This document shows positions 49,417 through 55,494 of a stretch of DNA of 64,000 nucleotides, piece by piece (position 1 is the stretch's first letter; every line of letters begins with the position of its first letter). The notes under the pieces were generated by a model that saw nothing but the letters and a program-made list of their open reading frames with translations, was not told where the DNA came from and searched no databases. The position numbers and the translations under genes were made by a program. The DNA lies in NCBI RefSeq assembly GCF_039392895.1, contig NZ_CP135027.1, positions 1-64,000 on the forward strand. Direction: 5' to 3'. The DNA is from Buchnera aphidicola (Mindarus keteleerifoliae). Its GTDB lineage: Bacteria > Pseudomonadota > Gammaproteobacteria > Enterobacterales > Enterobacteriaceae.

Positions 49417-49489
<73 letters not shown>

Positions 49490-49502
49490 CAATACATAGT
49501 AT

Positions 49503-49531
49503 ATAATACGGATAGAATTGTTCTTATGCAA
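49503..49531 (-). promoter_or_regulatory. Promoter of the Thr-Tyr-Gly-Thr tRNA operon
   Basis: On the minus strand TTGCAT (49531-49526) and TATTAT (49508-49503) with a 17-bp spacer, ending 13 bp before the first mature tRNA base. It is well placed to start the tRNA transcript, and perhaps secE-nusG beyond it. Confidence 0.6.
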
Positions 49532-49666
49532 TAAAAAATTTTAAATTTGTTGACAAATTTTTAATTTTTAAAATATATAAAAATGTTTTCGATAATTTTA
49601 ATCTAGGCAAATATAAAAAATTTTTTCTTTAACATTAATTAATTAATTTAAAATTTTTTTTAAATT

Positions 49667-50610
49667 AATAAATTTTACTTCTGTTTTTGAATCAATATCA
49701 ATTTTGATTGAACAGAAAAATATATTTTTTTTACTAATTTGAGTATATCATTTTAAATTAGTTTTATTTTTATTTATTAAAATAAGTAAATTTTTTTATA
49801 TAAAGCAGTGTCGTTAGAGCTTTAATGTTGTAATTTACATTTTTTAATTAGTTATCAAGTTAAAATTTCTATATTTCTATTTTTTTTAATTGTAATAAAA
49901 AGCATTATTATTTTTTAATAAAGATTTTTTTGAATTTTAGATATTAAGCATGGAATTTTTAAAAAAAATATCTGTATTCGTTATTTTTTAAGATTTGGTA
50001 TTTTATTTTTTCCAATGTTATGTATTAGAAAAAACGTTTTTTACTGTAACACTTTTAGGATTGATATGATTCAAACATCCATAGGATAATTTTGGTTTTC
50101 ATATTTTTGATATTATCATTGTAATAGAAAGAATAAAACATTCATGTTGATGTTTCTTTTTTTGAAAAATATTGATTTTATAGTCGAATTGATAATTTGT
50201 TTTATTTAATCTAATTTTTTTATTTCTTGTTGAGGTTTTGTTAGAGTATGAATAGAAATTTTTGTTTCTATATCATATATTCTAATATTTTAGATAGGAG
50301 TAATACCTACTAATCCAGCAATAAAGGTTAGATTGTCAAGTCTCAATAATCTATTTTTTACAGAACATTTTACTAATTTATGTTATTTTTTACTTTATTT
50401 TATATGTAAAATCCATTTTTTAAAGTTTTTTTTAATTTTTATTTCTTATCTGATTAAAAATGATTATTTTCCTATAATTATTTAAAAAAAAATATCATTA
50501 GCTTTTCTTAAAATCATTGTATTAAAAGATGAATTTTTGTAATTTTTCAAGTTTTAATTATATTTTTTAAAGTATAAGTAAAGTTTTTTTAGTTTAAACA
50601 TTTAGTTTCT
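49667..50610 (-). pseudogene. murB: Relic of murB (UDP-N-acetylenolpyruvoylglucosamine reductase)
   Basis: No open frame remains, but a minus-strand translation still follows MurB along most of its length. MILRKANDIFF stands for LILGEGSNVLF (about 50488-50524), WILHIK and HKLVK for WYLHV and HRLVK, LDNLTFIAGLVGITPI then a stop for LENLALIPGCVGSSPIQ (about 50290-50340), QFDYKINIF for RFGYRDSIF, PKLSYG for PVLTYG, and NTDIFFKNS for NAGSFFKNP (49952-49978). A LIKKCKLQH stretch and a final EVKFI (EVRFI in E. coli) end it. At least ten in-frame stops and at least one frame change interrupt it. It sits next to the tRNA cluster, as murB (with birA and coaA) does in E. coli. murB normally makes UDP-MurNAc for peptidoglycan. 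Confidence 0.85.
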
Positions 50611-50791
50611 AACTATATGAGTTTTTTAAGGAAGCAGTATTATTTTTTGTTTGGTTTTTTTAATTTTTATCATTTAAGATTTTAAGTATGTAAAAAAATA
50701 AAAATAATATTTAATTTTATTAAAATGTAAATATTCAGTGTACAATATTTTTTGTATTTTAGAAAATTCAAACTTTTTCCGGATAAAATCT

Positions 50792-51679
50792 ATGAATAAT
50801 TTAATGCTATATAAAAAAAATATTTTTCTTGAGAAATTTTCAAAGATAGCGAAAGATATTCAAATTTCGTTTGAATTATTTCCACCTAAAAAAAGTTTTT
50901 TAGAAGAAAAATTATTGAATGTTGTTAAAAATTTCAAGTTATTTAAACCAAAATTTTTTTCAGTTACGCATGGAGCAAATAGCGGTAAGGAAAATTTAAC
51001 TTATAGTTTAGTTAAAAAAATAAAGAAAAAAACTGGTATTAATACAGCTCCTCATCTGACATGTTCAGATTTTACTAAATTTGAATTGAAAAATATTGCT
51101 AAAAAGTATTGGAATAATAAAATTTATCATATTGTTGCATTGAGAGGAGATGAATTTAATAATAGCAGTCGATCAAAAATGGGTGCTATTGATTTAGTAT
51201 ATTTGTTAAAAAAAATTGCTAACTTTGATATTTCAGTAGCTGCTTATCCAGAAGTTCATCCTAAAGCTGAAAGTGCTTACAAAGACTTAATGAATTTAAA
51301 GAACAAAATGGATGCAGGTGCTAATCGTGCTATCACTCAATTTTTTTTTAAAATAGAACATTATTTACGCTTTCGAGATAAGTGTTTTTCAATAGGAATT
51401 AAGAAAGATATAGTACCAGGAATACTACCTATATACAGTTATGATCAACTAATTCGATTTTCTAAATTAGGTAAGGTAGCTATTCCTAAATGGATAAAAA
51501 ATACTTTTAAAAATTTTAAAAATGATGTAGACATTTGTAAAATTATAGGTTCAAATATAATGCTAGAAATGGTTTATGGATTATATCGAGAAGGAGTTAG
51601 AAATTTTCATTTTTATACTTTGAATCGTCTAGAGATCGTTTATTCTATTTGTTGCATATTAAATCAAACATCATTTTAA
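50792..51679 (+). CDS. metF: 5,10-methylenetetrahydrofolate reductase MetF
   Basis: 295 aa from the chosen ATG (E. coli 296). FAD enzyme making 5-methyl-tetrahydrofolate, the methyl donor for MetE in this window. SFELFPPKK, TAPHLTC, VALRGD, AAYPEVHP, GANRAITQFFF and the C-terminal REGVRNFHFYTLNR are conserved. An in-frame TTG at 50738 would add 18 residues not found in the family, so the ATG at 50792 is preferred. Confidence 0.96.
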   Translation: MNNLMLYKKNIFLEKFSKIAKDIQISFELFPPKKSFLEEKLLNVVKNFKLFKPKFFSVTHGANSGKENLTYSLVKKIKKKTGINTAPHLTCSDFTKFELKNIAKKYWNNKIYHIVALRGDEFNNSSRSKMGAIDLVYLLKKIANFDISVAAYPEVHPKAESAYKDLMNLKNKMDAGANRAITQFFFKIEHYLRFRDKCFSIGIKKDIVPGILPIYSYDQLIRFSKLGKVAIPKWIKNTFKNFKNDVDICKIIGSNIMLEMVYGLYREGVRNFHFYTLNRLEIVYSICCILNQTSF

Positions 51680-52022
51680 ATAATTAAAAAAAATATTTTT
51701 TTATTAGCAAAGTTAGATTTTTAAGTCTAATTAAATGAATAGTTTAATCTAACCAAAAGTTATTTAAATTTATTAAATTCCTAAAAAATAAATAATATTA
51801 TTAAACTTTTTGATTTTTCGTTAAAAATATTTTTAAAGAGTTTTGAAGATATTAAATATAAAAAATAATTTTTTAAAATTATTGTTCTTTTTAATAGATA
51901 AACTATAAAAAAATTTAAAAGATTATTGATATTTACGTATCAGATTTTTTTTAAAATTTTCAACTTTTATTTTTTTATAGATTTTTTGGAATTTTTTTTG
52001 AATAAAATGTTGAGTTATTAAA
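51680..52022. other. metF/argB spacer (343 bp), scar of argE and argC
   Basis: No ORF and no readable relic. In other Buchnera and in E. coli argE and argC lie just before argB; here both are missing and only A/T-rich DNA is left. The sole structure is a set of overlapping inverted repeats after metF: GTTAGATT at 51712-51719 can pair with AATCTAAC at 51746-51753 or, more locally, with the TCTAA at 51726-51730. This is a possible metF terminator of low confidence. Confidence 0.6.
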
Positions 52023-52805
52023 ATGAATAAAAATCCTTTGGTAATAAAATTGGGTGGGTTGTTATTAGATAGTGAAGAAGCAATGAATCGTTTGTTTAAA
52101 ATTTTTGTTTCGTATCGAAATTTGTGTAATAGAAAAATAATAATTGTACATGGAGGTGGAGGAAGTATAGACAATTTAATGAAACGATTATCTCTTCCTA
52201 TAAAAAAAAAACAAGGATTAAGAATTACTCCAATTGACCATATTAAAATCATTACCGGAGTACTAAGTGGAACAGTTAATAAAATGTTATTAGCTTGGAC
52301 CAAAAAGTATAATATAGACGCTGTAGGTTTATGTTTAACAGATGGAAATAGTACATATGTAACTCAACTAAGTTCTTCTCTTGGATATGTAGGTACTGCT
52401 AAACCAAGATCTTCTAAATTTTTAAAGCTTATATTATCTCAAAATATGATTCCTATTATTAGTTCAATAGGAATTACCGAAGATGGAATTTTAATGAATG
52501 TTAACTCAGATATTGCTGCTACGGCTATATCTTTGGTTTTGGATGCTGACTTAATATTACTTTCTGATATAAGTTCTATTATAGATGGAAAAGGAAAACC
52601 AATTACTAAAATTGATTTTAATTTAGCTCATAAATTAATTAATAGAGGAATTATTACCGATGGAATGATTGTTAAAGTTAAAGCTGCTTTGGAAGCTGCT
52701 CAAACTTTAAACAAAATTGTTGATATAGCAAGTTGGCAAAATGAAAAAGAATTAAAATTATTATTTAAAGGTAAATCAATAGGAACACAAGTCTTACCTA
52801 ATTAA
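52023..52805 (+). CDS. argB: Acetylglutamate kinase ArgB
   Basis: 260 aa (E. coli 258). Phosphorylates N-acetylglutamate, the second step of arginine synthesis. KLGGLLLDS (residues 8-16), [19 protein letters not shown] and the ATP-site segment [12 protein letters not shown] are intact. The next enzyme, ArgC, and the deacetylase ArgE are not encoded nearby, so the product can be used only if those activities exist elsewhere. It starts the argB-argG-argH cluster; argG follows after 17 bp. Confidence 0.96.
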
Positions 52806-52822: not shown

Positions 52823-54046
52823 ATGAAAGTAAACGAAGTTAAAACAGTAGTTTTAGCATATTCTGGTGGAGTTGATACTTCTGCTATTATTCCATGGATA
52901 ATAGAAAAATATGGGTATAAAGTAATAGCCTTTGTAGCAGATGTAGGACAATCTCGTGAAGACTTAAAAGGTATCGAAAAAAAGGCAATGCAGTCAGGAG
53001 CTAAAAAATGTTATGTTTTTGATTTAAGAAAAAAATTTGTAGAAAATTATGTTTATCCCATGGTCAGGATGGGAGCGATGTATGAATGGAATTATTTGTT
53101 AGGTACAGCAATAGCTAGACCTATTATAGCAAAAGCTCAAGTTGATTTAGCTACTGATTTAAAAGCCTATGCTCTTTGTCACGGAGCAACAGGAAAAGGA
53201 AATGATCAAGTAAGATTTGAGATGGCATATGCTGCTTTAGCTCCTAATTTGAAGGTGATTTCTCCTTGGAGAGAGTGGAAATTTAGATCAAGAGAAGAAT
53301 TAATTACATATTTAAATAAAAAAAATATTCCTGTTACTGCGACAAAGAAAAAAATTTATAGTCGAGACGAAAATTTATGGCATCTTTCAACAGAAGGAGG
53401 AGATTTAGAATGTCCATGGAATAAAGCAAAAGAAGATTGCTGGATTTGGACTATAGATCCAAAATTAGCTCCTGAAATTCCCGAAAAGCTTTCTGTTTTA
53501 GTTAAAGAAGGAAATGTAGTTCAAGTTAATGGAAAGAATTTAACTCCCGTAGAATGTTTAAACTTGTTAAATAAAATAGCTTCCCGTCATGGAATTGGTC
53601 GAGTAGATATGGTTGAAAATCGATTAGTAGGGATTAAGTCAAGAGGATGTTATGAAACTCCTGGTGGAACATTAATGATGCATTCTATAAGAGCAGTAGA
53701 GGAACTAGTATTAGATAATGATTGCTTTAAATGGAAACAAAAATTATCTTTAAAAATGGCGTCTATAATATATGAAGGAAAATGGTTTACGCCTCTTAGA
53801 AAATCTTTGCAAGAAGCTAATAATGTTTTATCAAAGGATGTAACAGGAGAAGTAGTATTAGAATTATATAAAGGAACTGTTAGAGTACTACAAAAAAAAT
53901 CAATTAATTCCTTATATTCTATAGAATATGCGACTTTTGGGAAAGATCAAGTTTACGATCAAACAGATGCTAAAGGATTTATAAATTTATATTCTTTATC
54001 TTCTAAAATTAGAATGATAAAAAAGTCTTTTAATAAAAAATCTTAA
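52823..54046 (+). CDS. argG: Argininosuccinate synthase ArgG
   Basis: 407 aa. Joins citrulline and aspartate using ATP. The PP-loop is VLAYSGGVDTS near residues 11-21, and HGATGKGNDQVRFE is conserved. It is of the shorter class (about 400 aa) rather than the 447-aa E. coli type, and its place between argB and argH is the argCBGH arrangement seen in several other gamma-proteobacteria. Confidence 0.96.
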   Translation: MKVNEVKTVVLAYSGGVDTSAIIPWIIEKYGYKVIAFVADVGQSREDLKGIEKKAMQSGAKKCYVFDLRKKFVENYVYPMVRMGAMYEWNYLLGTAIARPIIAKAQVDLATDLKAYALCHGATGKGNDQVRFEMAYAALAPNLKVISPWREWKFRSREELITYLNKKNIPVTATKKKIYSRDENLWHLSTEGGDLECPWNKAKEDCWIWTIDPKLAPEIPEKLSVLVKEGNVVQVNGKNLTPVECLNLLNKIASRHGIGRVDMVENRLVGIKSRGCYETPGGTLMMHSIRAVEELVLDNDCFKWKQKLSLKMASIIYEGKWFTPLRKSLQEANNVLSKDVTGEVVLELYKGTVRVLQKKSINSLYSIEYATFGKDQVYDQTDAKGFINLYSLSSKIRMIKKSFNKKS

Positions 54047-54117: not shown

Positions 54118-55494
54118 ATGTCTCTTTGGGGTGGAAGATTTACTCAAAAATCTAATAAGTTTTTTGAAAAATTTAATAAATCAATAAATGTTGATTATAA
54201 ATTAGTGAAAGAAGATATTTTTTCTTCAATTCAATGGTCTAAAGCTTTAAAAAAAATTGATGTTTTAACGTCAGAAGAACAAAAAAATATTGAAGAGGCA
54301 TTAAAAAATATATTAAAAGAAGTAGAAACAAATCCTAAGGTAATGTTTTTGAGCAAAGAAGAAGATATTCATAGTTGGATAGAAAAAAAATTAATTATTT
54401 CATTGGGTTCATTAGGAAAAAAATTGCATACAGGTAGAAGTAGAAATGACCAGGTAACAACTGATTTAAAATTATGGTGTAAACGAAAAATTAAAAATAT
54501 TTTGAATAAAATTTATTTTTTTAAAAGACAACTAATAAAAGTTGCTGAAAGAAATCAAAAATCTATCATGCCAGGATATACTCATTTACAACGTGCTCAA
54601 CCTATAACATTTGCTTATTGGTGTCTTGCTTATTTAGAAATGTTTAAAAGAGACGAATTAAGATTAAAAGATGCTTTATATCGATTAGATCAAAATCCTT
54701 TAGGTTCTGGTGCTTTAGCAGGAACGGCTTGGGAGATAAACAGAGAATTTTTGTCTGTTCAATTAGGATTTAGAACTGCTACTAAAAATGCTTTAGATAG
54801 TGTTTCTGACAGAGATTATGTTATGGAATTACTCTCTGTTGCTTCAATTAGTATGATTCATTTATCTAGATTTTCTGAAGATTTAATTTTTTTTAATTCA
54901 GGAGAAGTTGATTTTATAGAACTATCTGATTCGATCACCTCTGGATCTTCTTTAATGCCTCAAAAAAAAAATCCTGATGCTTTAGAGTTAATTAGAGCTA
55001 AATGTGGAAAAGTTTGTGGAAATTTAATTAGTAGCATGATGTTATTAAAAGGGTTACCATTATCGTATAATAAAGACATGCAAGAAGATAAAAAAAGTTT
55101 ATTTGAAACGATAGAAATTTGGAATGATTGTTTAAAAATGTCTATTTTAGTTTTGAAAAATATTTCTATTAATGTTAAAAATTGTAAAAATTCAGCTCAA
55201 AAAGGATATACGAATTCTACCGAAATAGCTGATTATCTGGTTAAAAAAGGAATTCCTTTTAGAGATGCTCATCATATTACAGGAAAGATTATTTTGTATG
55301 CCAGTAAATCAAATTTATCTTTAGAACAGATACAATTAAACACTTTTAAAAAATATAGTAATTTTATTGAAAAAGACATATATGAACATATTAGTTTAGA
55401 ATCTTCGTTAAAAAAAAGAAATTCTTTGGGAGGAGTTTCTTTTTCGAAAGTATCTGAAATGATAAAGTTAGAAAAAAATGTTTTGAATATGTGA
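54118..55494 (+). CDS. argH: Argininosuccinate lyase ArgH
   Basis: 458 aa (E. coli 457). Releases arginine and fumarate. [10 protein letters not shown] start, [21 protein letters not shown], and the superfamily signature [12 protein letters not shown] with the catalytic serine are intact. It follows argG by 71 bp and ends the arginine cluster. Confidence 0.97.

Follow-up and report, generated by a model that had tools for sequence, protein, structure and literature searches.

We analysed the first 64 kb of contig C1 (NZ_CP135027.1) of the genome of the Buchnera symbiont of the aphid Mindarus keteleerifoliae (G000), a stretch of 64,000 nucleotides hereafter called the window. The subject is the slot between metF and argB, where related genomes carry the arginine biosynthesis genes argE and argC, and what the emptying of this slot means for the arginine genes that are left. 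The features of the locus are as follows (dN/dS, ratio of nonsynonymous to synonymous divergence):

50792–51679, plus strand: metF (identified by eye), bordering the gap on its left
51680–52022, no strand: spacer in place of argE and argC, 343 bp, 88% A+T, no gene remnant recognised
52001–52022, plus strand: conserved block before argB with a ribosome-binding-like ttgag, from a gapped alignment of three spacers; putative function
52023–52805, plus strand: argB, predicted N-acetylglutamate kinase, intact; TIGR00761, 202.4 bits versus a cut-off of 151.3
52823–54046, plus strand: argG, argininosuccinate synthase, intact; exceeds its NCBIfam cut-off; dN/dS 0.18
54118–55494, plus strand: argH, argininosuccinate lyase, intact; exceeds its NCBIfam cut-off; dN/dS 0.18

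An empty slot in three Mindarus Buchnera genomes

The genome comprises 551,674 bp in three contigs and is rated 98.5% complete. It includes a chromosome of 542,511 bp, a leucine plasmid (contig C2) that matches NZ_CP135025 of the Mindarus keteleerifoliae Buchnera at 99.8% identity from end to end, and a 2,728-bp contig (C3) that has no readable bases and lay outside all gene searches. Mindarus Buchnera genomes including CP135027 were reported in PMC11193766. For comparison we used two sister genomes of the same genus, G001 (541,202 bp; putative Buchnera of M. japonicus) and G002 (540,092 bp), together with five reduced genomes that all have argC: G032 (putative Buchnera of Nipponaphis monzeni), G094 (putative Buchnera of Thelaxes californica), G121, G060 and G125.

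Both sister loci (L051 and L052) show the order metF-argB-argG-argH seen in G000, with spacers of 494 and 534 bp. In G032, G094 and G121 (loci L053–L055) the slot is filled, in the order metF-argE-argC-argB, argE lying on the minus and argC on the plus strand. In a tblastn search of the three genus spacers, the best E value (expect value) obtained with any of six query proteins, three ArgCs and three ArgEs, was only 0.075; the queries came from G032, G094 and G121, where both genes lie in the metF-argB slot and their identity was checked, the ArgE proteins of all three scoring above the cut-off of the argE model TIGR01892. Matches obtained with blastn (best 2e-10) were discounted, being mostly short, in both orientations and in many places, as expected at 88–90% A+T. 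The initial annotation, which had placed the loss of argE and argC in this interval and had called argB, argG and argH intact, is thus upheld on both counts: only the A+T-rich spacer separates metF from argB, no protein remnant was recognised in it, and the three genes downstream are full-length and above their NCBIfam cut-offs.

A consecutive block of steps is missing from the arginine pathway

The initial annotation had left open that argE and argC had moved, and had named intact copies of both, elsewhere on the chromosome or on a plasmid, as the finding that would overturn it. The argC model TIGR01850 gave no match at an E value of 0.001 in any of the three genus genomes (contig C3 of G000 lying outside the search), while the same search was positive in 14 of 14 controls. 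The argE model returned one match per genus genome, and so did the argD model, all of them under the cut-offs. The argE-model match of G000 was rejected as ArgE, since it scores as DapE and adjoins dapA (by eye), and its argD-model match (C1:268393–269565) was rejected as ArgD, since it scores as BioA and adjoins bioB (by eye). No argD member above the cut-off was found within the same search scope. Furthermore, with the wider ArgC/Asd family model PF01118, searched at E values up to 10, asd is the only gene to pass the cut-off in each of the three genomes; a second, weak match, under the cut-off and near carB at about 138.4–138.7 kb in two of the three, is presumably dapB. Relocation of argC or argE is therefore not borne out in the sequence that could be read.

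The search of the genome for the other arginine genes, which had also been suggested, recovered argA, argF, carB and asd above their cut-offs in all three genus genomes, and argB, argG and argH are open frames in all three. Specifically, steps 1–2 and 6–8 of the pathway are present and steps 3–5, those of ArgC, ArgD and ArgE, were not found, so that the missing steps form one consecutive block. Most simply, argC, argD and argE would have been lost before the three species split. In lysine synthesis, ArgD normally also acts as the succinyl-diaminopimelate aminotransferase; with argD not found, one lysine step is also left without its usual enzyme.

argA and argB are under constraint

The initial annotation had further suggested that argB might be about to decay and had proposed a test for relaxed selection. 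We calculated dN/dS by the method of Nei and Gojobori with Jukes-Cantor correction, the ranking of genes being more reliable than the values because the genes are very A+T-rich. As means of G000 against its two sisters, dN/dS is 0.097 for argA (bootstrap interval 0.079–0.122) and 0.121 for argB (0.087–0.165), compared with 0.169 for argF (0.131–0.219), 0.181 for argG (0.145–0.229) and 0.181 for argH (0.143–0.226). The upper bound for argA falls short of the lower bounds for argF, argG and argH, while the argB interval overlaps theirs, its point value being below those of the three genes. Among the point values of 13 genes, nusG, rpoD and carB rank below argA, and bioA, metF, dapE, asd and cysE rank above argB. 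Relaxed selection on argA or argB, in the form of raised dN/dS or faster divergence, was not detected. Synonymous divergence (dS) of the two genes across the three genome pairs is 0.40–0.79, and in a neutral simulation, a simple resampling of bases with insertions and deletions left out of the model, no run out of 5000 remained stop-free in any of four settings.

Against 30 family ArgBs, picked by family score regardless of Mindarus, mean identity is 58.6% for G000, 56.9% for G001 and 58.0% for G002, and for the argC-keeping genomes it is 58.9% (G060), 58.3% (G032), 51.4% (G121), 49.1% (G125) and 48.0% (G094); conservation of Mindarus ArgB, as judged from these sequences, is level with that of the best argC-keeping reduced genomes and not above it. 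A comparison with six references had put Mindarus ArgB (58.8–59.7%) above all five argC-keepers (G032, 56.6%; G094, 47.4%; G121, 50.8%; G060, 58.3%; G125, 48.8%). It was dropped and is not relied on, because the six references came from the 80 of 512 relatives kept for their resemblance to Mindarus ArgB; against the 30, Mindarus stands level with G032 and G060. Furthermore, ArgB of G000 aligns along its full length with acetylglutamate kinase 1gs5. The residues K8, G11, G44, G45, R66, N158, D162 and K217 are, on our assumption, the catalytic and substrate-binding residues of the E. coli N-acetylglutamate kinase, and all eight are found in G000 ArgB with an offset of +1.

Decay of argB is thus not supported by the sequences: we see no sign of it, the gene being intact and constrained in three species. 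The argument against decay rests on the dN/dS values and on the contrast with a more distant Buchnera described below.

Retention of argA and argB without argC is rare in the family

We searched a family sample of 149 genomes from 148 genera, evenly drawn, which includes G000 and G002 and leaves G001 aside. Matches were obtained for argB in 104 genomes, for argA in 104 and for argC in 101. Among the matches listed, four genomes have argB without argC (G000, G002, G061 and G117, the match in G117 being weak), and three have argA without argC (G000, G002 and, as a weak match, G082). G000 and G002, both Mindarus Buchnera, are the only ones in which argA and argB each exceed the cut-off while argC is lacking. 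In the literature within our scope we found no report of a Buchnera that retains argA and argB without argC, argD and argE, a scope beyond which lie subscription papers and supplements, where the combination may be tabulated; the word "pathway" does not occur in the main text of PMC11193766. The gap is real, genus-wide and unusual in the genes that it leaves in place, and as a gene loss it is ordinary.

G061, the putative Buchnera of Sarucallis kahawaluokalani (428,356 bp; arginine locus L072), provides the contrast. It resembles Mindarus Buchnera in the order metF-argB-argG-argH, in the removal of argE and argC from the slot and in an argB frame that is still open (L072:4681–5451, 256 codons). 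It differs in that argA, like argC, gave no match in the family-wide profile searches, and in the state of its ArgB, which scores 110.7 bits against the cut-off of 151.3, has a mean identity of 33.3% to the 30 family ArgBs and has its substrate-binding arginine replaced, whereas Mindarus keeps both genes conserved. ArgG of the same genome shares 65.6% identity with four enterobacterial references. The argB of this one genome is probably in decay, or else changed in use, and we take it as showing what an argB may come to look like after the pathway is lost, sharply unlike the argB of Mindarus.

A possible route through the gap

A continued importance of the first two steps is well supported. 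Selection on argA and argB is most simply explained by a branch that is still running, and we favour, tentatively and short of calling it probable, a continued flux through the ornithine branch by means of substitute enzymes inside the cell. ArgA would produce N-acetylglutamate and ArgB would then phosphorylate it; the next three steps would be carried out by enzymes that the same cell retains for other pathways; and the resulting ornithine would pass to ArgF, ArgG and ArgH. The lysine-pathway counterparts are the candidate substitutes, with Asd potentially standing in for ArgC, DapE for ArgE, and whichever aminotransferase now yields succinyl-diaminopimelate for ArgD, the identities in each case being guesses. 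Asd and DapE are intact in Mindarus Buchnera, and lysine synthesis needs a replacement for ArgD in any case, since argD was not found. The hybrid route in its exact form, in which ArgA and ArgB begin, Asd, the succinyl-diaminopimelate aminotransferase and DapE finish, and argC, argD and argE became redundant, is rather doubtful.

The nearest precedent is an E. coli ProA mutant (PMC6941894), in which ArgA and ArgB likewise operate without ArgC and are rescued by an enzyme of another pathway, a mutated ProA, which is a reductase and not an ArgC homologue. It differs in being an engineered laboratory case and in the enzyme recruited, ProA. Several points weigh against substitution in Mindarus Buchnera. 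Asd and DapE look ordinary, with no sign of a second job in either, and dN/dS of asd and dapE, at 0.20 each, is among the higher values of the 13 genes; the aminotransferase replacing ArgD is postulated only. In addition, argA, argB, argC, argD and argE are all reported to be gone from the Buchnera of Uroleucon ambrosiae (PMC3164680), so loss of the whole branch is survivable.

The chief rival to substitute enzymes is a second role for ArgA and ArgB: the aphid would supply ornithine to ArgF–ArgH, and the first two enzymes would be kept for another use, for instance to provide N-acetylglutamate or N-acetylglutamyl phosphate as an end product or a signal, or for a second activity of the proteins. 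This is a serious alternative, though we consider it unlikely. Host supply has been proposed for other Buchnera. Ornithine genes have been lost in several Buchnera lineages (PMC9672956); for Uroleucon a host ornithine aminotransferase has been suggested, the alternative being an arginine-rich diet (PMC3164680); and for Sipha maydis, whose Buchnera also retains the ornithine-to-arginine end, host ornithine is stated (PMC12013274). All three Mindarus Buchnera genomes have intact copies of argF, argG, argH and carB, and the initial annotation was right to suggest that the ArgG and ArgH steps may remain functional. Host-supplied ornithine would explain argF–argH but not argA and argB, since with host ornithine alone the first two enzymes would consume acetyl-CoA and ATP to no purpose and would not be expected to enjoy the protection of selection. 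It is here that both comparisons diverge. Mindarus Buchnera shares with the Uroleucon symbiont the absence of argE, argC and argD, which makes textbook ornithine synthesis impossible, but all three of its genomes retain argA and argB, intact and constrained, where the Uroleucon symbiont has lost them with the rest (argECB, argA and argD; PMC3164680), and unlike the Sipha symbiont (PMC12013274) it retains the first two steps.

The constraint on argA and argB seen in dN/dS also counts in favour of a second role. Against such a role, we know of no other use of N-acetylglutamyl phosphate, and the drift to 33% identity of ArgB in G061, where neither argC nor argA was found, does not suggest a general second role of ArgB. 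Missing symbiont steps are often ascribed to the host; in Mindarus Buchnera the steps preceding the gap are retained with no less stringency than those that follow it, so an explanation by the host alone must be incomplete. The possibility, also raised by the initial annotation, that the host or a second symbiont performs the steps of ArgC, ArgD and ArgE, here on Buchnera intermediates, is improbable. Pathways divided between aphid partners are on record in the literature, but the ArgB product that would have to be handed over is labile, N-acetylglutamyl phosphate being described as too unstable to purify (PMC6941894), which makes such a transfer unattractive, and no Mindarus co-symbiont is named in the titles and abstract openings of the papers returned by one literature search.

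It is less probable again that argC, argD and argE are present and were missed, whether because they lie on the unread contig C3 or on a plasmid absent from the assembly, or because the enzymes are non-homologous. The 98.5% completeness rating and the 2,728 unread base pairs of C3 leave some room for this; against it, C3 is shorter than the roughly 3.4 kb that argC, argD and argE would occupy together, the two sister genomes likewise yielded none of them (as far as their small contigs are readable), and no protein other than Asd passes the cut-off of the ArgC/Asd family model. Slowest to convince is the idea that argA and argB are leftovers in gradual decay, which we regard as very unlikely: the pathway around them is broken and the argB of G061 appears to be in such a state, but low dN/dS, the absence of any stop-free run in the neutral simulation and an ArgB as similar to its relatives as those of the best argC-keeping reduced genomes all speak against it.

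A direct test is possible, because the gap covers few steps, is defined in chemical terms and is common to at least three species. The fate of N-acetylglutamyl phosphate in a cell that lacks ArgC would reveal either pathways merged on one set of enzymes or a second use of ArgA and ArgB.

The spacer upstream of argB

Within the spacer, a block of about 22 bp immediately before argB differs among the three species by one substitution and one single-base length change in a gapped alignment, whereas the remainder has diverged among the three Mindarus Buchnera; without gaps, only 14 of 28 positions of the region agree. We infer from its conservation that the block is a retained ribosome-binding site. 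Alternatively, 52001–52022 could be part of a new promoter that arose after the loss of argC. A promoter scan of 51600–52200 returned two sites, fewer than the shuffle mean of 6.0, and says nothing on a promoter. To the left of metF, at 49452–50737, lies about 1.3 kb of A/T-rich DNA without a listed open frame of at least 60 codons, a longer stretch than the gap left by argE and argC.
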